Virus record (IMG/VR): IMGVR_UViG_3300011118_000032 | Span: 1-23,356 of that record | DNA: 23,356 bases | Source: a virus | Reading direction: 5' to 3' (one strand) | Shown here: in pieces, positions 2,572-21,207 of the stretch | Numbering within the stretch: the first letter of the stretch is position 1 | How the letters are laid out: each line of letters opens with the position of its first letter | Made by a program: the position numbers and the translations under genes | Notes under the pieces: generated by a model | What the model saw: only the letters and a program-made list of their open reading frames with translations | Told to the model about the DNA's origin: nothing | Database searches by the model: none

Positions 2572-3045
2572 ATGTCCGGGGTTATCGACCAAGTAATCCA
2601 GCCGGTTATCGGCAGTGTCATAGGGCCAGTCGTCGGCGGGGACATCCCGCTGGGGTTCCGCGCTCTCTTTGCCAGTATGGGGGTTACGCAGGACAAGGTG
2701 GTGGTCAGTTTTAGTGACGTACCACAAAACTTCACACCCATCGCCGGCGTGCAAATTCTTATTGATGGGCTAGACGGTCTGAACGCAGCAATAGCTCCTG
2801 TTTTGAGTGGGGCCACACTGACATATACCCTTAACAACGTCCAGCCAACAGACGTTAATATACAATGGGTATATAGTGAACCCCCTGGTTTAATAAGTGA
2901 TGGCATTGATCTTGCCCCTAGTAGAACGCTCACAGCACAAGCAGGAGCCGCACCTACTATAGAATTTTGGGACATGGAGGCTACCCCGTTGGTTTGGGAT
3001 ATGGAGAACGGGACCGACAGCTGGAACTTAGAATCTAGTTTATGA
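2572..3045 (+). CDS. unknown protein with fibre-like N-terminus
   Basis: The 157-aa product begins with a repetitive hydrophobic segment, MSGVIDQVIQPVIGSVIGP, of the kind often seen at the N-terminus of phage tail-fibre and adaptor-like proteins. The middle is beta-rich (residues 40-115) and the end carries an unusual near-repeat, FWDMEATPLVWDMENG. No enzymatic motif is visible. Its TGA overlaps the next ATG in an ATGA junction, so it is probably translated together with the PhoD-like protein. A plausible role is anchoring that protein to the virion. The reading frame is well supported; the role is a guess. Confidence 0.6.
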   Translation: MSGVIDQVIQPVIGSVIGPVVGGDIPLGFRALFASMGVTQDKVVVSFSDVPQNFTPIAGVQILIDGLDGLNAAIAPVLSGATLTYTLNNVQPTDVNIQWVYSEPPGLISDGIDLAPSRTLTAQAGAAPTIEFWDMEATPLVWDMENGTDSWNLESSL

Positions 3046-5627
3046 CGCACTTCACTCACACACATAGCGCGACTGATGTAACCGGAAGGGTTGGTGTTAT
3101 AAGTCGATCCTCTTCTGATGCTACTATCACGATCCAAGGCATTGCCCCTCAAGTTGTAACGATGACTGCGAGGGGGCAAGACGGTGCAGGCGGGGTATTA
3201 GACTCAGCAGACACGTTACCTATACCACAGTGGACGGGACGTGCTGATTTTGTAGGGCTAATTGCTGACACTATTTATACGTTCATAGTTGAGCAAGACG
3301 GCGAGACATTAGACGGCACACTGCATACTGACCCAGCAGGTGATTTTGTGATGTGGTTTATTGGCTGTGATGGCCCCGTGACGCCGCAGAATGATACCGA
3401 CTTCGCCCCAGGGCTTGCACCAAACTATGCACCACAAGACTATGGCATGTTCCCATTAATACGTGCTGACGCTGAAGATCCAGGTACACCCCCAGTCGTA
3501 GCCATGACTATGCCTGATGATATTGGCTATCGTGACGGTGGTTGGACAGATGACGTTGGGGCTTCAGGGACTGGGTTTTTTTGCCACTATGAACCGAAAG
3601 ATGCGGCAACACCGACAGAGTATTCCTATTGTGTTGCTGATATGGGGTATTTTGGTTTGTATACAGATTTCACATGGAATGGGTGGAATCTGGTAAACAA
3701 GTTAGCGAGTAAAGGATTAAGGCAAAGACGGTTTATCCATCCAGACAGACAATGGTGCTACCATAATATTGGGTTCTATCCTGGTATCGGAGACCATGAA
3801 TTTAGGGGCTCTCAAGCTGAGGGGGTCAGAGACACGGATGCTATGAAAGCGGCTGCCTTTAATTCATTCCTAACAAGTATTGCAATTGGCGCACCTGACC
3901 CATTGGCTGGTGGTGCAAATGGCTATTGCTATACACATAAATTTGGCCCAGTTGAAATTATAAATTTTGACCGTGAGTCAAACAATGGAGACCCTGTTGG
4001 TTTTTTAAATTCATTCAATGCAAGTTACAATAGCGGAGAAGCGGATCTCTCGCAGATGCCTACAGGGTTTCCTTACATTGGTGACGCACAAATAGACTCG
4101 CTGCTAGCTGATATTGATTTGTCAGGAGCAACACCTTTCAAGATTGTTTCTGCTCCCTGCGATACACACTACCAGTTTAACAGACAAGATCGTGTCGCTA
4201 CCGTTAACTTTGACGATTTTACAAACCCGCTGTTTGGTTTCTCAACGGCTATGGGGCATCAACAACCCATTGATGGCTATGGCAACGACAAGCAGGAATG
4301 GGAAAGGTTTATGACATCTGATGGTTCTGTCACTCCAGCAGGGCTTTTAAAACTGTGTGAGGATAACAGTGCGCAGGCGTATTGGCTAACTGCTGACAGG
4401 CACTACCATGGAGTCAGGTACCATTACAAACAAGAGTACGCAGGTGCTATACAAGAAGAGTTATTGCAGATATATGCGGGTACTGTGAATGGGCAAAAGG
4501 CGCATTACCTACACGATAGCGTTCGGAATGTGCGGCGTGTGCTTGATGGCACTGAATATATATACATACCAGATTATGTTGTTGAATCGGGGGTTAGACC
4601 GAGTAGACCATCAGCTTTACGCATCCATGTAAAACCAAATGCAGTTCCCCCTGAAGTTAACTACCAATTGTGGGACCAACAAGACGGTAAAGTTTGGGAA
4701 ATATCGAGCCTACTTGGCGATGGCAACATACCGCCTAATATTATGGAGTCTAGTAACATGTCAAAATTTAGTGAAAAGCTTAATGAAGACTACCAGCCTT
4801 TGGGTGATGACGTAATGGGTCTGTCTGCCGAGTTTGGTGGCATATATACAGATGTTGGGGCATCAGTTAAAAAGCTTGTTGGTTCATTCTCGCAGAGTTG
4901 GGTTCAGGGGTTCTCAGCTGCTTCTAATGAATATACAGTGGACCCTGCTGCTTTCCAGCGGCTGACAGCCAACGCTATTGAAGAAGGAAGTGGGGACGGT
5001 GCACCATATAACACTACAAACTCCTTCAGTGAAGCTGACACGGGTGGGGTACTATTAATCCCTTTTATCTTACCTGTTGGCAGTGTGGGCCGAAGGGTAA
5101 GACGGTTTATTTTACCTACATTTGGGCGAGCAACGGGTACTGCAGCAACAGTCTATTTTACGTTGTATGATGCATATAACGGCAACAAAATTCATGAGTC
5201 ACAGTCATTGGTAAATGCCACAACTGGGCAACAGATAACTGACCTTGTTCAAAGTTTAGGGTCCCCTACATTCCCCAGTGACAGGGTGTACCTGGCAGTC
5301 CGTCCTGCAAGAGCTGATGGGCTAATAGGTAACCCCGGTGAAGCACTCCTTTTTCTGTTTGGCGGCTCTGATGAAACTTTAGTCCCAATGAAAGGGTTTG
5401 GTGTAGAGCAAGGGGCCATGAATGCGGATTTGATAAATTCGTGCCTTACATACCCTACCGGGGATACGGGTTTTCCAGGGCAAAGTTTTGACGCCGTGGA
5501 CTCAACAATAGTTGCTGATTCTCTCAATCTGGAGTTGATTAACTATTTATTTGGAGGCCCCCCGGCGCCTTATGCGCAGATTTCATACAACCGCAACGAT
5601 ACTCCACCAAACCAGCTTTTACCTTAA
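3042..5627 (+). CDS. large protein with PhoD-like metallophosphatase domain
   Basis: This 861-aa protein contains a core resembling PhoD-type phosphatases/phosphodiesterases, which hydrolyse phosphoesters with bound metal ions. A beta-rich domain (about 10-98) matches the position of the PhoD N-terminal domain, then DFVMWFIGCDGP (101-112) resembles the family's entry strand. Metal-site candidates follow: VADMGY with D200 (compare GDQIY), GIGDHE with D251-H252-E253, FGPVEIINFDRES (301-313; compare LDTR) and LTADRHYHG with D452, H454 and H456 (compare SGDxH). The C-terminal ~300 residues (about 560-861) are beta-rich and unrecognised. There is no signal peptide, unlike secreted PhoD. It may be a virion enzyme acting on phosphorylated envelope polymers during adsorption, or a cytoplasmic phosphate scavenger. 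Base composition is clearly AT-richer than the morphogenesis genes (73 G/C in the 180 bases 3601-3780), suggesting later acquisition. The fold call is fairly sure; substrate is unknown. Confidence 0.72.
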   Translation: MTHFTHTHSATDVTGRVGVISRSSSDATITIQGIAPQVVTMTARGQDGAGGVLDSADTLPIPQWTGRADFVGLIADTIYTFIVEQDGETLDGTLHTDPAGDFVMWFIGCDGPVTPQNDTDFAPGLAPNYAPQDYGMFPLIRADAEDPGTPPVVAMTMPDDIGYRDGGWTDDVGASGTGFFCHYEPKDAATPTEYSYCVADMGYFGLYTDFTWNGWNLVNKLASKGLRQRRFIHPDRQWCYHNIGFYPGIGDHEFRGSQAEGVRDTDAMKAAAFNSFLTSIAIGAPDPLAGGANGYCYTHKFGPVEIINFDRESNNGDPVGFLNSFNASYNSGEADLSQMPTGFPYIGDAQIDSLLADIDLSGATPFKIVSAPCDTHYQFNRQDRVATVNFDDFTNPLFGFSTAMGHQQPIDGYGNDKQEWERFMTSDGSVTPAGLLKLCEDNSAQAYWLTADRHYHGVRYHYKQEYAGAIQEELLQIYAGTVNGQKAHYLHDSVRNVRRVLDGTEYIYIPDYVVESGVRPSRPSALRIHVKPNAVPPEVNYQLWDQQDGKVWEISSLLGDGNIPPNIMESSNMSKFSEKLNEDYQPLGDDVMGLSAEFGGIYTDVGASVKKLVGSFSQSWVQGFSAASNEYTVDPAAFQRLTANAIEEGSGDGAPYNTTNSFSEADTGGVLLIPFILPVGSVGRRVRRFILPTFGRATGTAATVYFTLYDAYNGNKIHESQSLVNATTGQQITDLVQSLGSPTFPSDRVYLAVRPARADGLIGNPGEALLFLFGGSDETLVPMKGFGVEQGAMNADLINSCLTYPTGDTGFPGQSFDAVDSTIVADSLNLELINYLFGGPPAPYAQISYNRNDTPPNQLLP

Positions 5628-5659: not shown

Positions 5660-5692
5660 ATGGCAGCACGAAAGAAAAAGGCGCGTAGGTGA
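5660..5692 (+). CDS. 10-codon leader peptide coupled to the lipoprotein gene
   Basis: A tiny reading frame encodes MAARKKKARR. It has a convincing AGAGG site (about 5647-5651) at proper distance, and its TGA overlaps the GTG of the next gene as GTGA, a typical coupled junction. It probably delivers ribosomes to the GTG start of the lipoprotein, which otherwise has a weak initiation context. A function for the strongly basic peptide itself is not evident. Confidence 0.4.
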   Translation: MAARKKKARR

Positions 5693-5868
5693 GCATCACC
5701 ATCGCCGCACTGTGTCTACTACTGTATGGATGCATAGTCAGCCGGCACGGAACCGATATGGAGCGGCGGTTTACCTGCATTGGTGAGTGCAAGGGTGAAT
5801 GTGAAATAATTTGTGAAGGTGTGTTTGATGGTACAACAGACAATAGGGACGTTGGGTTAACTAAATAG
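5689..5868 (+). CDS. small cysteine-patterned lipoprotein
   Basis: The 59-aa product starts at GTG with a short hydrophobic segment SITIAALCLLLYGC. LYGC at residues 12-15 looks like a lipobox, so Cys15 would be lipidated and the protein anchored in a membrane facing the periplasm; Tyr at -2 and the lack of N-terminal charge are atypical. The mature part has cysteines at 30, 34, 38 and 42, exactly four residues apart, in CIGECKGECEIIC, suggesting disulfides or a metal site. The start is fixed by an in-frame TAG immediately upstream. It precedes an outer-membrane protein gene. It could be an outer-membrane spanin subunit, but it lacks the proline-rich character of Rz1; a host-surface-modifying lipoprotein in the manner of lambda Bor is another option. 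Confidence 0.55.
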   Translation: MSITIAALCLLLYGCIVSRHGTDMERRFTCIGECKGECEIICEGVFDGTTDNRDVGLTK

Positions 5869-5929
5869 GAACAAATGAATGTAAAGGGCGCCACTGGATG
5901 GCTGGTGATAACAGCTAAGAGGTGGCAGA

Positions 5930-6814
5930 ATGAAAAAGTTTATAGTACTCATGGCCGTTTGTTTCAGTGCGAGCGCCATGCCATTGTATTTCTATACCGG
6001 GCTGGGTAGCTCAGGCAGTATTGACAGGGGGCTTGGTCACGAGGTGGCGGAGGTGGGCTTCGGTGTTGAGGCGTACAACAACGGTGTGTTTGGTATTGAC
6101 ATAGAGCTTGGCTACACCACGGGGGGTACGGTCAAAGGCAGACCAATCTTGCTAACGTCGAATGCGAAGCCGGTCCCCATCACTTACGTTGCGGAAGATC
6201 CGAAGCCGGTGGAGATAAACATCCCCAGTGTTTTGGAGCCAGTCATTACGCTACCCGTAGTTGTTCTTGACATTCCAATCCCACTACCCATATCAGTGCC
6301 GGAGCCGGAGCCGGAGCCAGAACCGGAGCCAGAACCACCCCCCACTGACGAAGGGGGTACAGATGTCGCAGAGCCTGAGTGTGGCGATGACTTTTGCTAT
6401 GACTATGATAGGCCCGTAGGGCCGGAAGCCGTGAGTGCGAAGCTGCCTAAAGCCACCACGGCAACGCCGACCATACAAAATGATATTTTCTCTATTACCG
6501 TCAACCCAAAGATCAAGGTCAACGATTTCATCTGGCTTAACCTTCGCTTTGGCGCGGACAAGAAGATGACTGACGGTGAGATAAAAAACGAGATCATTGA
6601 CAAAGAGTCGCGGTCCATCCAGTGGTACAACGACACGCACTTTTCAGACGACACTGTGACATACCACGTCGGCGCGGGTGGTTTATTCAAATTCAGGAAA
6701 CAGCTGACTGGGTATGCTAAAGCGGATTGGTATGATATGGGTGAGTCTATTCAAGGGAACGACTTTCAGACTGATGATGTAGTAGTAATAGCCGGACTGA
6801 GGTTCTTATTCTAA
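5930..6814 (+). CDS. outer-membrane beta-barrel protein with Pro-Glu spacer
   Basis: The 294-aa protein has a clear signal peptide (MKKFIVLMAVCFSASA, cleavage likely after residue 16) and ends in phenylalanine (VVVIAGLRFLF), the usual sorting signal of outer-membrane barrels. About eight amphipathic strands can be placed: near 18-25, 40-49, 53-63, 185-195, 199-208, 243-254, 258-268 and 283-294, as in OmpX/OmpA-like barrels. Between strands three and four sits a long insertion (64-184) rich in Pro, Glu and Asp, including a PE run (124-137) and two cysteines (151 and 156). If the strand count is right this insertion is outside the cell. AGAGG precedes the ATG. Neighbours are a lipoprotein and a holin-like gene. 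Possible roles are blocking receptors against superinfecting phages or changing the host surface, as suggested for lambda Lom. It is not a virion protein by any visible sign. Confidence 0.65.
   Translation: MKKFIVLMAVCFSASAMPLYFYTGLGSSGSIDRGLGHEVAEVGFGVEAYNNGVFGIDIELGYTTGGTVKGRPILLTSNAKPVPITYVAEDPKPVEINIPSVLEPVITLPVVVLDIPIPLPISVPEPEPEPEPEPEPPPTDEGGTDVAEPECGDDFCYDYDRPVGPEAVSAKLPKATTATPTIQNDIFSITVNPKIKVNDFIWLNLRFGADKKMTDGEIKNEIIDKESRSIQWYNDTHFSDDTVTYHVGAGGLFKFRKQLTGYAKADWYDMGESIQGNDFQTDDVVVIAGLRFLF
6299..6334 (+). repeat. six-copy 6-base tandem repeat encoding Pro-Glu
   Basis: Six tandem copies of CC[G/A]GA[G/A] encode the PE run of the outer-membrane protein (residues 124-135). The array is in frame, so copy-number change by slippage would lengthen or shorten the spacer without breaking the gene. 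Confidence 0.8.
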
Positions 6815-6830
6815 CAAGGGGCAAAAAACT

Positions 6831-7247
6831 ATGATGTGGGCTGCAATCAAAAAAGGGTTCAAGGCTGTTGTCGGTTTCGGTGGCAGTGACACAGGGCTCG
6901 CTGCTGTCAAAGAAGTGGCTGAGTTTATTGACAACCGCAAGTTCACAGAAGAAGAACAGGCAAAGTATGTGTTGGAAGTAGCACCTTTCTATGCTCAGTT
7001 CATGCAGGGCACTATGTCTGAAAACACTGAGCGTAGTAAGACGCGCCGGCATTTAGCCATCCTGGTTATCAGGAACTGGTTGGCCATGCTGTGGGTGTCT
7101 ATATTTGCATGGTTGTGGAAGCCTGACTGGTCTGGGTTTATCCTAACTATTGCATTGAGCACAGCGCTCATTACACTGGTGCTCGGCATCGGTGCTTTCT
7201 TCTGGGGCACGCACTTGCTCAGAGGTACAAAGCTCAAGAAAGAATAA
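6831..7247 (+). CDS. holin-like membrane protein
   Basis: This 138-aa protein has a soluble, helical N-terminal half (residues 1-70, with charged TEEEQAKY and TERSKTRR segments) and two hydrophobic stretches at about 74-96 and 101-130, ending with a basic tail TKLKKE. The layout resembles phage holins of the type with a charged helical region before the membrane segments. A holin would form inner-membrane lesions that release the signal-less endolysin encoded at 947. AGGGG lies upstream of two adjacent ATG codons; the first is used here. It follows the outer-membrane protein by 16 bases. It could instead be another small phage membrane protein; the holin call rests on topology and context. 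Confidence 0.5.
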   Translation: MMWAAIKKGFKAVVGFGGSDTGLAAVKEVAEFIDNRKFTEEEQAKYVLEVAPFYAQFMQGTMSENTERSKTRRHLAILVIRNWLAMLWVSIFAWLWKPDWSGFILTIALSTALITLVLGIGAFFWGTHLLRGTKLKKE

Positions 7248-7394
7248 CTTAAATGAGGTATTATCGTAGGATATGTGGTACGGTTTTTCGGTAGTTAGGA
7301 GAGCTGTAGAACAGCAAAGGGCCAAGGACGGCCACCTCCCTTGGGACCATCAAGTAAATTTGCGTATTTTTTAATCTACATGTATTAATACTAC
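7248..7394 (+). other. intergenic region before the large terminase
   Basis: This 147-base gap is AT-rich and the largest internal one in the window. It contains a 6-base stem CCAAGG (7322-7327) / CCTTGG (7339-7344) that has no adjacent T run, a T run at 7367-7372, and a perfect 10-base palindrome GTATTAATAC (7382-7391) only three bases before the terminase ATG. No confident sigma70 promoter is visible. A 33-codon frame at 7273-7374 exists but lacks a properly spaced ribosome site. Confidence 0.5.
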
Positions 7395-8783
7395 ATGCAG
7401 ATAGACTTCACACCCGATGCCACTCTTTGGCCTTTATGGAGGTCGAACGAATACTACCAATTCGTAATTGGGCCGTTGGGCAGCACCAAGACCACCAACC
7501 TCATTATGAAGTTGCTGACCATCGCAGCCCAGCAAAGGAAAGGCCACGACGGGTTGAGGAGAACACGCTTTGCTATCTCTCGACAAACATTACAGCAGAT
7601 CAAAACGACCGTTCTTAAGGACATTGAGTATTGGCTTGCGCCGATTATTACATATAAAGTCTCGGACTCGGTCATTCAGATCCGGCAGGGGGATATCCAC
7701 AGCGATTGGCATTTTATTCCTCTTGAAGATGTTGCTGACCAACGTAGACTTTTATCTATGCAGCTTACTGCGGTGTACTTCAACGAATTCAGGGAGTTAC
7801 CGCTCGACATTGTCGCAGCGGCAGCGGGGCGTGTCGGTCGATACCCGTCTGTTGGTATGGGCGGTTGTACTTGGCACGGCATCCTTGGTGATTCTAACCC
7901 TCCGTCAGTAGATTCGCCGTGGTACGAGTTCCTTGAACTGGACCCCCCACCAAACATGACTTACGTCCACCAGCCTGGGGGCTTGGACCCCGAGGCAACA
8001 TGGTCGCACCACCTGGTATCAGGATATTACGAAAACCTGATGCACGGCATGAGCGATGCCTGGGTGGACATTCATGTCCATTCCAAATGGGGAGAATCCC
8101 TTGCCGGTAAGCCTGTCTATAAGAACTCGTTCAAAGCCAACTACCACGTTGCGCAGAGTGAACTGAAACCCATACTGGGCATGCCGCTATTGGTCGGCTG
8201 TGATTTTGCCCGCTGGCCCGCTGCAGTAATCTGCCAGATAGATCACATTGGCCGACTCCTTGTCCTTAAAGAATTGGAGAGAGAAAACTGCGGGGTTGAA
8301 AAGTTCTGTCTTGAGGAGCTACTCCCTACTATGCACTCAGCCCGCTTCGCCCGGCACCCTTCGTTTCTTGTCGGCGACCCGTCCGGGATCAATCGGTCGC
8401 AAATCGGTGAAGAATCAGTATTCTCCATGCTTAAAAGGCTTGGATTTGTCGCCACCCCGGCCAGCACCAATTTTATTGATCCTCGCCTGCGGGCGGTAGA
8501 GAAGTGGCTGGTACAGCAACGTGATGGAAAACCGGCGCTTTTAATTGACCCGGAGGGATGTCCTAAGCTAATTCAAGGGTTTAAGAGCCACTACCGGTTT
8601 AAACTCAAGAAGAACGGAGTGATGGAGGACGTTCCGGATAAGTCGAATAGGCCTTATCCAGATCTTCACGACGCCCTACAGTACGCCTGCCTCGGTACTG
8701 CTGAGAATATAAGGGCAAGAATGCTCAACCGCATGACCCCCCGCCAAGTAGCTCCCAAGTTCACCTCAGCAGCCTGGACATAA
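7395..8783 (+). CDS. terL: terminase large subunit (packaging ATPase/nuclease)
   Basis: The 462-aa protein is a two-domain DNA packaging motor. The ATPase domain has a Walker A loop GPLGSTKT (residues 26-33) and a Walker B-like strand LTAVYFNEF with N130-E131, followed by a coupling motif GDSNPP (165-170). The RNase H-like nuclease domain has its acidic residues at D270 (GCDFAR), D328 (GDPSG) and D426 (HDALQY). It docks on the portal and pumps genome into the prohead. An in-frame TAA at 7386-7388 limits the start to the ATG at 7395, yet no Shine-Dalgarno sequence precedes it; instead a GTATTAATAC palindrome is there. Asn in place of the usual Asp in Walker B is a mild variation. Its small subunit partner is probably at 1407. 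Confidence 0.93.
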   Translation: MQIDFTPDATLWPLWRSNEYYQFVIGPLGSTKTTNLIMKLLTIAAQQRKGHDGLRRTRFAISRQTLQQIKTTVLKDIEYWLAPIITYKVSDSVIQIRQGDIHSDWHFIPLEDVADQRRLLSMQLTAVYFNEFRELPLDIVAAAAGRVGRYPSVGMGGCTWHGILGDSNPPSVDSPWYEFLELDPPPNMTYVHQPGGLDPEATWSHHLVSGYYENLMHGMSDAWVDIHVHSKWGESLAGKPVYKNSFKANYHVAQSELKPILGMPLLVGCDFARWPAAVICQIDHIGRLLVLKELERENCGVEKFCLEELLPTMHSARFARHPSFLVGDPSGINRSQIGEESVFSMLKRLGFVATPASTNFIDPRLRAVEKWLVQQRDGKPALLIDPEGCPKLIQGFKSHYRFKLKKNGVMEDVPDKSNRPYPDLHDALQYACLGTAENIRARMLNRMTPRQVAPKFTSAAWT

Positions 8784-17835: not shown

Positions 17836-18171
17836 ATGAGTAAGCGTTCGCAGTTTTCATCCTTGGAGCACCACGGCGTTGATGCTAACGACGATACACA
17901 GCCGGTCCTTAGTGGTACGCCCATCGCTGCCCAGACTGATGCGAGTGCTGCGCCGATTGCCCCACTGGATACCAGCGTGCTGTATGACCTTTCAACGGTC
18001 GGGTTGGTCAAATATGGCGCTGCCCCCCTGCCAGTGGGGCTGGTCATCGACTCAGCTACTGGCATTATTAGTGGTACACCGACTACGCCCGGCGTTACCG
18101 CGGTCAAAGTCAGCGTATCCACCAGTGGCGGCCCACTCCGTGCCCCTGGCTTCTCTTGGACTATTACCTAA
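17836..18171 (+). CDS. small protein with putative Ig (He_PIG-like) domain
   Basis: The 111-aa product carries the motif LPVGLVIDSATGIISGTPT (about 65-83) followed by VTAVKVSVS, typical of putative Ig domains (He_PIG) in bacterial and phage surface proteins. The N-terminal 50 residues are disordered. A related domain is found inside the second collar protein (19279-21207). AGGAGAG sits directly after the previous stop codon. It is probably an accessory virion protein, possibly binding weakly to cell surfaces. Confidence 0.65.
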   Translation: MSKRSQFSSLEHHGVDANDDTQPVLSGTPIAAQTDASAAPIAPLDTSVLYDLSTVGLVKYGAAPLPVGLVIDSATGIISGTPTTPGVTAVKVSVSTSGGPLRAPGFSWTIT

Positions 18172-18311
18172 TGCCGGCTGTATCGAAGAAGCAGCAAAAG
18201 TACATGGGTATGTGCGCCAACAAGAAACCCAAACCGAAGCGCTGTCCTTCTAAGAAGGTAGCGAGCAAGATGGCCAAGAAACCGAAAGGCGGGTATTCGA
18301 GGAAAACCTAA
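18171..18311 (+). CDS. 46-aa basic protein, DUF3008-like
   Basis: A short frame encodes a strongly basic 46-residue protein beginning MPAVSKKQQKYMGMCANKK and ending KKPKGGYSRKT. The start resembles the DUF3008 family (MPAxSKxQQxFMGM...), small basic proteins frequent in phages, often near structural genes. Both ends overlap neighbours at TAATG junctions, so it is part of the same translational chain. Role unknown; DNA or RNA contact is plausible because of the charge. Confidence 0.65.
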   Translation: MPAVSKKQQKYMGMCANKKPKPKRCPSKKVASKMAKKPKGGYSRKT

Positions 18312-19279
18312 TGGCAAACCAGCTATATTCCAATAACGCCACCAGTATTCTGGCAGCTGACTGTCTGATAGGTGAATTGACTGCGCAAGTACAGCCTGGT
18401 GAGGGGGCGCTGTTTCCAAGCCCTGCACCCGGCCAGTTCTTCACGGCGGCCCTGCAAGATATCAATGACAACATTGAGATCGTCACTTGTACTGATGTCA
18501 CTGGTGACATTCTGACGATCGTTCGAGCGCAAGAAAACACCATCGAGCAGAATTTCCTGTTGGGTGATACCCGTATTGAGTGCCGACCAACGGCTGCGGT
18601 TATGGCGGCTTTTGTACAGTCAGATGATGCTATTTTTACAGGTGATGTATCCCTCGGTGGTAATGCACTGATCAACGGTGAGATCGTCGCCGTACCCCTT
18701 CGTGGGGCAACAGGTGATACGAGTAACCAACTTGTTGTTCCTCCTGCTGGTGCCCGACCGACTATTGGTGGGGTTGGTATTCTTCTGGAAACTGACACGA
18801 TTATACCGCCTGGGTTAATCGGCATGTGGTCTGGCCTTATCGGTAACATCCCGACCGGCTGGGCACTGTGTAATGGTGGCAATGGCACACCAGACCTTAG
18901 TGGCCAATTTATCGTATCCTACGACGCCGGTAACCCACTGTTCGATACTGTAGGGAACCAGGGCGGCAGCGCGTTGACTTCCATTGATGGTGCGCACGAC
19001 CACAGTGGCGCTACTGACCCAAGGACCCTGCTTGAATCTGACATACCGACACTTACGATCACAGCACACTCAGCGATAAGCAACAACAGCTCTGATAACC
19101 ACAACATAGTTAACAGGGTAGCGGCCGGTGCTCAGAACAACGACAATCCGAGCGTCTCGGCAGTTGAGTATGTAAACGGGGCACCCACATCACATACGCA
19201 CGGTATCCCTAGCGACGGTGACCACGTCCATGACTTCATACCGCCGTACTATGTATTAGCCTTTATAATGAAACTCTAA
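18311..19279 (+). CDS. tail collar-domain fibre protein 1
   Basis: The 322-aa protein is a short fibre with a C-terminal phage tail collar domain. The domain is seen at about residues 167-318: GMWSG, PTGWALCNGG (181-190), PDLSGQF (194-200), then a His-rich part with HDH (229-231), HTH (295-297) and HVHDF (305-309), and the closing PPYYVLAFI. In T4 gp12-type proteins such histidines bind metal and stabilise the trimeric receptor-binding tip. The N-terminal region (1-110) contains an attachment module shared with the next gene. GAGGA lies upstream and the start overlaps the previous stop (TAATG). It probably contacts the host surface. It is paralogous to the following gene. Confidence 0.85.
   Translation: MANQLYSNNATSILAADCLIGELTAQVQPGEGALFPSPAPGQFFTAALQDINDNIEIVTCTDVTGDILTIVRAQENTIEQNFLLGDTRIECRPTAAVMAAFVQSDDAIFTGDVSLGGNALINGEIVAVPLRGATGDTSNQLVVPPAGARPTIGGVGILLETDTIIPPGLIGMWSGLIGNIPTGWALCNGGNGTPDLSGQFIVSYDAGNPLFDTVGNQGGSALTSIDGAHDHSGATDPRTLLESDIPTLTITAHSAISNNSSDNHNIVNRVAAGAQNNDNPSVSAVEYVNGAPTSHTHGIPSDGDHVHDFIPPYYVLAFIMKL
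18725..18795 (+). repeat. repeat copy A in collar-fibre gene 1
   Basis: This 71-base stretch encodes NQLVVPPAGARPTIGGVGILLET and aligns without gaps with 19690-19760 in the next gene. Most of the downstream half is nearly identical. It marks a tandem duplication or later recombination between the two fibre genes. Confidence 0.8.
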
Positions 19280-21207
19280 TGCCACAGAAATTCTCAAATA
19301 ATGGCAGCGCACTCCTCGCCCAGGACCTGATAATTGGACAGACACTTATTGTTGTCCAAGCCGGTTACGGCGGGCGGTTCCCCACCACTGACACTGACGA
19401 TGAGTATTTCTTGGCGGTGTTGGACGATGGTGTTGGCAACAGAGAAATAGTGCGCTGCACGCTCCGTAGCGGGGACTCATTGGTTGTTGTCCGAGCGTGG
19501 GAGGCTACAACAGAAAGGGATTTCCCTGCAGGGGCACGTATTGGTGTCCGCATGACAGCCGGTACGATGGGCAGGTTTATCGAACCAGATACCGCACAGT
19601 TTCTCGGTGATGTTGACCTCAACGCCAACGCACTGACCAACGGTGAGATCGTTGCGGTACCAGTGCGTGGGGAATCAGCGGACGTATCTAACCAATTGGT
19701 GGTTCCCCCAGCAGGTGCCCGACCAACTATTGGTGGGGTTGATATTCTTCTGGAAACTGATAACCCCCTCACTGCTGGTATGATCTTTATGTGGTCCGGC
19801 AGCCCACTCGCGGTACCAATGGGGTGGAACCTTTGTGATGGTACGAACAGTACACCCGACCTTAGCGGTCGGTTTATTGTATCGTATGACGTTGCAGAGC
19901 CCCTATTCGACACGATTGGTAACCTTGGCGGCAACTTCTCGGCGCAGCCCGCAGGCGCGCATACGCATGGAGGCGCCAGTGGCACAACACTTAAAGCGTC
20001 GGACATCCCAACCCTGCCTTTAACTACCCATCTATCAACGAGTAACAACAGTGGAGACGACCACCAATTTGTTAACCAACCGTCAGCAGGCGCGAATAGT
20101 AACGACTTCGCTGCAACTGAGGCTGTTGAATATGTGAACGCGACCCCAACACCCCACCCGCACGACATGCAAAATAGTGGCACCCATTTCCATGAAGCAG
20201 TGCCGGTCTACTACACCCTGGCGTATATCCAGTTTGCTGGTGTCGCTATTCCGCCGATATTTACTGGTACCCTTGCTGATCAGGCATATGCTGAGGGGGA
20301 AGCTATTGCCCCCATAGACACTACCTTGCTATTCAACGAGGGTAACGGGCTTACCCCGACGTATTCTGCCGTGAACTTGCCTGCTGGGTTATCCATCGTG
20401 GCGACTGGTGTTGGTCGGGGGGTTATTTCTGGTACTGTTGATGTCGGTGCTGCGTCCCTGTCACCCTATGCGGTACAGGTTACATTGACAACATCATTGG
20501 GGGCGGCTGACTCGAATATTGCAAATTGGACTGTAGTGGTTAACCCGAATTTACCGGTACCGGGGTTCTCGATATGGCTGAACCCAGATACGCTTACGAC
20601 ACTGGGCGGCAACGTCACAGGATGGGCGAACGATTTGACCGCAACTCGTGGCACGCAGGCTGATACCAACGCGCAAGGCGCAGCGATACCCGAGTCGACT
20701 GACCCAACGACGGGGCTCGCTATCGTAGAAGCCCCCGACGTAACACTGAGGAGTCTGGTGGCAGCTACCCCGTTTGTTATCTCTTCAGGCTTTACGCTGT
20801 TTGTTGTCGGTCGGTTAGACCCTGCCAGCTCTGGCGGCACTCTTGTTGATATGGACACAACACCAGGAGACCGGGCGATTGTGAATACCTCCGGTGCCAC
20901 TCTTACCATTAGCGGCGATGATGTTGGTGTTATCACAACGCTCGCTAATGATAACCTACCGCATGTATTCGCTTGTAGATATGACTCTACTAGCTACAGG
21001 GCTAGGATATCTGGTCAACCAGTGTGGACGATCAGCGGCGTAGGTATTGCGCAGAATTGGAATTATGGCAAGTTTCTGCAATCATTCACACCCAACAACC
21101 AGCAAGCTATTGGCTGGATCGGTGAACTAGTAGTTTATGAAGAAGGGCTATCTGACGTGCAAATGGACGCACTGTTTGACTACTACCTTAATAAATGGTC
21201 TTTATGA
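19279..21207 (+). CDS. tail collar-domain fibre protein 2 with Ig-like and lectin-like C-terminus
   Basis: The first ~320 residues repeat the plan of the previous gene: the attachment module, NQLVVPPAGARP (138-149), MWSGSPLAVPMGWNLCDG (171-188), PDLSGRF (193-199) and the His motifs HTH (228-230), HPH (293-295), HFH (303-305). After YYTLAYIQF (311-319) come a He_PIG-like domain (about 325-420, LPAGLSIV...GVISG) and a concanavalin-A/LamG-like domain (about 428-642) with ISSGFTLFVVGRLD and an ending GELVVYEEGLSDVQMDALFDYY. The lectin part would bind host polysaccharide. This layout suggests duplication followed by gain of a new receptor-binding end. The start overlaps the previous stop (TAATG). 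Both copies probably form the host-recognition apparatus. Confidence 0.82.
   Translation: MPQKFSNNGSALLAQDLIIGQTLIVVQAGYGGRFPTTDTDDEYFLAVLDDGVGNREIVRCTLRSGDSLVVVRAWEATTERDFPAGARIGVRMTAGTMGRFIEPDTAQFLGDVDLNANALTNGEIVAVPVRGESADVSNQLVVPPAGARPTIGGVDILLETDNPLTAGMIFMWSGSPLAVPMGWNLCDGTNSTPDLSGRFIVSYDVAEPLFDTIGNLGGNFSAQPAGAHTHGGASGTTLKASDIPTLPLTTHLSTSNNSGDDHQFVNQPSAGANSNDFAATEAVEYVNATPTPHPHDMQNSGTHFHEAVPVYYTLAYIQFAGVAIPPIFTGTLADQAYAEGEAIAPIDTTLLFNEGNGLTPTYSAVNLPAGLSIVATGVGRGVISGTVDVGAASLSPYAVQVTLTTSLGAADSNIANWTVVVNPNLPVPGFSIWLNPDTLTTLGGNVTGWANDLTATRGTQADTNAQGAAIPESTDPTTGLAIVEAPDVTLRSLVAATPFVISSGFTLFVVGRLDPASSGGTLVDMDTTPGDRAIVNTSGATLTISGDDVGVITTLANDNLPHVFACRYDSTSYRARISGQPVWTISGVGIAQNWNYGKFLQSFTPNNQQAIGWIGELVVYEEGLSDVQMDALFDYYLNKWSL
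19690..19760 (+). repeat. repeat copy B in collar-fibre gene 2
   Basis: This is the partner of 18725-18795, with the same length and reading frame; differences are mostly at third codon positions. Confidence 0.8.

Follow-up and report, generated by a model that had tools for sequence, protein, structure and literature searches.

The question raised by this locus was whether a large phage protein, encoded between the two terminase genes, has the fold of the phosphatase PhoD and, if so, to what use the phage might put it. The window analyzed was a whole IMG/VR entry (IMGVR_UViG_3300011118_000032; 23,356 bases), which is possibly a genome fragment. The open reading frame, termed P0001 here, occupies positions 3042-5627 (+ strand), begins with ATG, and specifies 861 amino acids. 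A preliminary description had proposed that it harbors a PhoD-like domain in a protein that lacks a signal peptide. The latter claim was borne out: no candidate was found at either in-frame start using a crude hydrophobicity rule that does flag a barrel-like gene downstream. By profile comparison and an alignment-driven model (both described below), P0001 was divided into an FN3/PhoD_N-like domain (residues ca. 8-99; 3063-3338; hhalign and model matches to FN3 domains) and a predicted PhoD/purple-acid-phosphatase (PAP)-like metallophosphatase core (residues 100-475, with a provisional C-terminal limit; 3339-4466; alignment, ordered motifs, and model). A weak possible long helix (residues ca. 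570-615; 4749-4886) appeared in a single-sequence model only, at very low confidence. Searches of phages, PDB sequences, and Pfam gave no match for the C-terminal region (4887-5624), which perhaps serves in receptor binding.

Conventional searches returned no relatives of P0001. None were found using tblastn in phages or plasmids, phmmer among PDB sequences, or back-translated scans of viral and genome contigs, and the pattern DDIGYxDGG was absent from the viral contigs scanned. Neither the PhoD family PF09423 nor the PHROG HMMs (including 24476) matched P0001 at E-values up to 1; PF09423 was likewise not detected in the family search, nor in 23 records examined mostly behind relatives of the large terminase (TerL). 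Two neighboring-gene candidates, the “tail fiber” of phage Rollin and the protein beside TerL in Rhizobium phage RHph_TM3_14A, were rejected as homologs, as neither had any similarity to P0001. This absence of direct relatives weighs against treating P0001 as a conserved protein or an established particle component. The failure of Pfam, PHROGs, NCBIfam, and PDB sequences to yield a match also speaks for the reading that P0001 is no relative of PhoD, the FN3-like domain being real and the similarity of the core fortuitous.

That reading was weighed using profile and motif statistics. A PhoD consensus served as the probe for the phage collection, and its matches were then confirmed with Pfam and the solved PhoD structure 2yeq; viral and bacterial PhoD sequences were collected starting from the proteins of cyanophages YongM and Elbi. 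Aligned in hhalign to a mixed 88-sequence PhoD profile, residues 1-560 of P0001 scored 39 (E = 2.8e-4), compared to at most 30.1 for 80 shuffled sequences and at most 29.1 for 150 natural phage proteins. The score against a profile of viral/phage PhoD proteins was 42.8 (E = 6.5e-5; residues 72-314), with 60 shuffles reaching no more than 27.8. Most of the hhalign signal derived from the N-terminal FN3-like domain and the transition between it and the core; aligned to the bacterial PhoD profile, residues 1-105 gave E = 2.1e-4, and the core alone (residues 100-560) was not significant (E = 0.078). A MAFFT shuffle test with 16 representatives did not discriminate either (13 invariant columns kept; shuffle mean 9.9, maximum 17). 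These last two results speak for a chance resemblance of the core. Against it, the alignment to the phage-PhoD profile was continuous across the FN3 domain and the region of the Cys, GDxxY, DDHE, and DxR motifs. Further, in an ordered-motif search whose spacing ranges were derived from the PhoD family, P0001 surpassed all 500 shuffles and all 98 natural proteins. Unaided, that search located four of six motifs at the expected sites (the GDxxY, DDHE, DxR, and LGxxQ blocks at residues 151, 240, 295, and 344) and put the Cys and GDxH motifs at wrong sites.

Structure prediction added a consistency check. A single-sequence AlphaFold model of P0001 (pLDDT 32) was discarded. Residues 1-475 were then modeled with an 83-sequence PhoD alignment, resulting in a mean pLDDT of 64.8 and a pTM of 0.73. 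The most confident stretch directly precedes the GDxxY motif, which also counts against a fortuitous core, and confidence was low from residue 455 on, just past the last motif. A comparison of an AlphaFold model with Bacillus subtilis PhoD had been suggested at the outset; using VIA-align, this protein (2yeq) was the best PDB match of the PhoD-alignment-driven model (Z = 16.1, 333 residues, rmsd 3.9), purple acid phosphatases followed, and the N-terminal domain matched FN3 domains with Z of 8-9. Foldseek TM-scores of the model to PAPs were only ca. 0.3. Because the input alignment consists of PhoD proteins, the model is not independent proof. Taken with the profile comparison, it supports the PhoD-like fold that the preliminary description had put forward; we regard this fold as quite likely, and a chance similarity of the core as improbable. 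P0001 thus very probably comprises an FN3-like domain followed by a PhoD/PAP core, with the detail of the fold to be read as predicted. The arrangement of an FN3-like domain and a metallophosphatase core is shared with PAPs such as 4dhl and 1xzw; unlike these, P0001 has a PhoD-type cysteine and an Asp in its GDxH motif, and not the PAP ligand set. We take its GDHE to resemble the GNHE motif of those enzymes.

The positions expected in the active site were assigned by aligning P0001 with 2yeq and 82 PhoD proteins; 19 of the 43 columns conserved at 90% were retained. The four strings that had earlier been quoted as PhoD motifs are all present (VADMGY at residues 198-203, GIGDHE at 248-253, FGPVEIINFDRES at 301-313, and TADRHYHG at 450-457), and three of them contain invariant columns (D251/H252, G302/D310, and D452/H454). 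VADMGY was rejected as a metal motif, D200 not being a family position. The GDxxY column instead aligns with MPDDIGY, so D160 and Y163 replace D200 as the expected ligands; they lie in PDDIGY (residues 158-163; 3513-3530), placed by both invariant columns and ordered motifs. Two features had been overlooked: C109 (3366-3368), located where PhoD has its iron-ligand cysteine, and an LGxxQ motif (IGDAQ, Q350) within IGDAQIDSLLADIDLSGA (4077-4130; ordered motifs and alignment). The remaining motifs are GIGDHEFRGS (residues 248-257; 3783-3812), TADRHYHG (4389-4412), and FGPVEIINFDRES (3942-3980; ordered motifs and alignment), which is the equivalent of the family GR..DxR motif, with its Arg off the family position. 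All of these lie on the + strand.

By this alignment, C180, D207, Y210, D266, D436, and H438 of B. subtilis PhoD correspond to C109, D160, Y163, D251, D452, and H454 of P0001, with Y210 and H438 numbered from sequence spacing (the text on ligand roles names the cysteine, aspartates, and asparagines; PMC4223295). H252 is kept as well. The Cys, Asp, Tyr, and His that ligate iron in PhoD are accordingly all present in the alignment (C109, D160, Y163, and H454), whereas the calcium ligands D265, N271, and N272 are replaced by G250, G256, and S257. Several tryptophans and arginines of the family are also missing, the DxR arginine among them. Judged from these aligned residues, the iron site appears intact, and the second calcium site appears to have been lost.

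This pattern bears on the possibility that P0001 is a virion protein that has kept the PhoD fold and not its catalysis, serving either as scaffolding or to bind phosphorylated surface polymers. Single substitution of D265, N271, or N272 abolished the activity of B. subtilis PhoD (PMC4223295), and it is exactly there that P0001 carries G250, G256, and S257; the enzymatic activity of P0001 is uncertain for that reason. The loss of the DxR arginine and of several tryptophans points the same way. On the other hand, the retention of every iron ligand and of the aspartates matching D266 and D436 is unexpected for a functionless site, and purple acid phosphatases function without the second calcium (PMC4223295). 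We consider this reading rather unlikely.

The surroundings of the gene were examined for indications of its role. The gene set is podovirus-like, featuring a portal gene (Pfam SU10_portal) and a match to the PHROG “internal virion protein”; the major capsid protein is 58% identical to that of RHph_TM3_14A, and the terminase of that phage is 43% identical. The small and large terminase genes adjoin in most TerL relatives, and ca. 5.5 kb separate them in the window. This cassette contains a small basic ORF, a 109-aa gene (2240-2569, + strand; the first cassette gene, preceded by a terminator-like hairpin at 2198-2213), a 157-aa gene (2572-3045, + strand), and the PhoD-like gene. Genes for a small peptide with a lipobox-like sequence, a protein resembling an outer-membrane barrel, and a small membrane protein complete it. 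No database match was found for the 109- or 157-aa proteins. The stop codon of the 157-aa gene overlaps the start of the PhoD-like gene (ATGA), an arrangement that suggests translational coupling of the two.

Three observations concern the downstream part of the cassette. The small ORF at 5692-5868 (VSITIAALCLLLYGC...), between the PhoD-like and barrel genes, has a lipobox-like cysteine and could encode a lipoprotein. The protein encoded at 5930-6814 has a signal-peptide-like N-terminus, a Pro/Glu-rich linker, and a below-cut-off match to Pfam OMP_b-brl (E = 1.7e-4); no phage relative of it was found. The protein encoded at 6831-7247 has two likely membrane segments, is perhaps a holin, and has one relative in locus L088 (E = 4e-9).

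Fiber-type genes lie close to the corresponding place in relatives: an annotated tail fiber gene lies upstream of the terminase genes in Rollin, a BNR-repeat protein is encoded downstream of TerL in RHph_TM3_14A, and a protein with tail-fiber PHROG matches lies between TerL and portal in locus L077. No direct fusion to a tail domain was seen in P0001; its gene is located in the terminase-side cassette, near these fiber-type gene sites of the relatives. At 0.39, the GC3 of the PhoD-like gene is the lowest in the window (other genes pooled, 0.575; lowest sliding block, 0.506), a foreign composition that suggests recent acquisition.

PhoD domains in other phages were surveyed next to P0001. The consensus probe found clear PhoD-domain proteins in YongM and Elbi (Pfam PhoD E of ca. 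1e-24), and a census yielded 66 viral PhoD ORFs (loci L180-L245), mostly long; some of their contigs may represent prophages or host DNA wrongly assigned to viruses. When many possible starts were tried with a crude rule, 53 of the 66 had no signal peptide candidate. All 43 of the ORFs scanned against PHROGs matched family 24476, and some carried tail-family fusions (PHROG 1885 in five, 1887 in four, 13714 in three, 7032 in three, and 5939 in one; members may overlap). The largest upstream ORF matched a tape-measure family at no fewer than 21 of 42 viral PhoD loci, and locus L095 encodes a PhoD domain joined to both a PHROG tail protein and DUF5047. Three PHROG families cover phage PhoD: 24476 (“phosphodiesterase”), 13624 (“hydrolase”), and 25497. 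The census suggests that viral PhoD domains often belong to tail or fiber proteins; with three families covering it, the domain is not unusual in phage tails, contrary to the earlier notion of an unusual phage weapon. A limited search of the open-access literature found no paper that describes the PhoD proteins of phages as enzymes of the tail.

P0001 looks like an outlying, far-diverged variant of a kind already known from PHROGs, a class of phage tail proteins with PhoD domains that is widespread and has drawn little notice. Like the phage tail PhoD proteins of the three families, it has an FN3-type domain directly before the PhoD core; the common features extend to the lack of a signal peptide in most cases, often a large C-terminal part, and a structural context in the phage, which for P0001 is a probable one. 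It differs from them in having no HMM match, in its podovirus-like terminase cassette, and in the loss of the second calcium-site residues. The YongM and Elbi proteins resemble P0001 in their PhoD core, C-terminal extension, and lack of an evident signal peptide, and they are unlike it in their clear Pfam PhoD match and different C-terminal region; no tblastn similarity to P0001 was detectable, and YongM is not a close relative.

Published data on YongM were also considered. The product of its gene at 5775..7658 (alkaline phosphatase D family) ranks seventh by score, with 35% coverage, in an LC-MS/MS list of 32 phage proteins from amplified, concentrated phage (Table 4 of PMC8875764). In the list it stands close to tail proteins and to the capsid fiber protein, the latter also being the annotation of its gene's neighbor, and the authors take it for a DNA-metabolism protein (PMC8875764). 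Because the list also contains DNA-metabolism proteins, the preparation was not purely virions. A UV mutant of YongM has a one-base deletion at 6196 in the PhoD gene (PMC11356776). Its coordinates place it in codon 488 of 627, and the Pfam PhoD match spans 60-285; the deletion, being beyond the core, would truncate the C-terminal region. The phenotype of the mutant is not assignable to the PhoD gene because a tail-fiber substitution shared with UV1 and UV4 is also present.

The alternative to a particle component is an enzyme of metabolism that would provide the infected host with phosphate. Phage phoD genes have been reported as P-acquisition genes, with one product active in vitro, and they are commonly counted as auxiliary metabolic genes (AMGs; PMC10987575). 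PhoD acts outside the cytoplasm, however, and B. subtilis PhoD is exported, whereas P0001 has no signal peptide candidate. Its gene sits among late genes in a fiber-type cassette, its large C-terminal region is unrelated to PhoD, and other viral PhoD ORFs sit in tail modules. We thus hold a metabolic role of P0001 to be very improbable. The preliminary description had left virion and metabolic roles side by side; the former is favored by gene position, by the missing signal peptide, and by the tail surroundings in which PhoD proteins of other phages occur. The overlap of the gene's start with the preceding stop codon and its foreign composition likewise favor a role of the virion protein in adsorption.

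The reading that we prefer, and consider somewhat more probable than its negation, is that P0001 is a structural protein of a podovirus-like particle, in which an FN3-like domain precedes a PhoD/PAP-like core and a C-terminal region, and that it is encoded in an exchangeable host-recognition cassette between the terminase genes. We infer its virion location, substrate, and catalytic or binding role. By analogy with other phage PhoD-domain proteins, it would reside on the tail or a fiber, would during adsorption bind a host phospholipid or a surface polymer that contains phosphoesters, and might hydrolyze the bound substrate. A bolder version is that P0001 is a PhoD-derived adsorption phosphoesterase, using iron and only one further metal to trim phosphorylated surface polymers or lipids, and that phage “phoD” genes generally encode miscounted virion adsorption enzymes; we put this forward tentatively and judge it doubtful.

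Sugar depolymerases on phage tails are known, and phosphoester enzymes are less described. The reading of phage phoD as a phosphate-supply gene deserves re-examination. If the tail role holds, AMG counts of phage phoD need to be re-read, and an enzyme class acting on phosphoesters of the host envelope at adsorption becomes directly testable.

Elsewhere in the window, positions 138-449 encode a GIY-YIG nuclease domain (Pfam E = 4.2e-6). Two tandem paralogous tail fiber genes, 54% identical over 317 aa, are located at 18311-21207; the second of them has an extension, a segment of which also occurs in the gene at 17836-18171.
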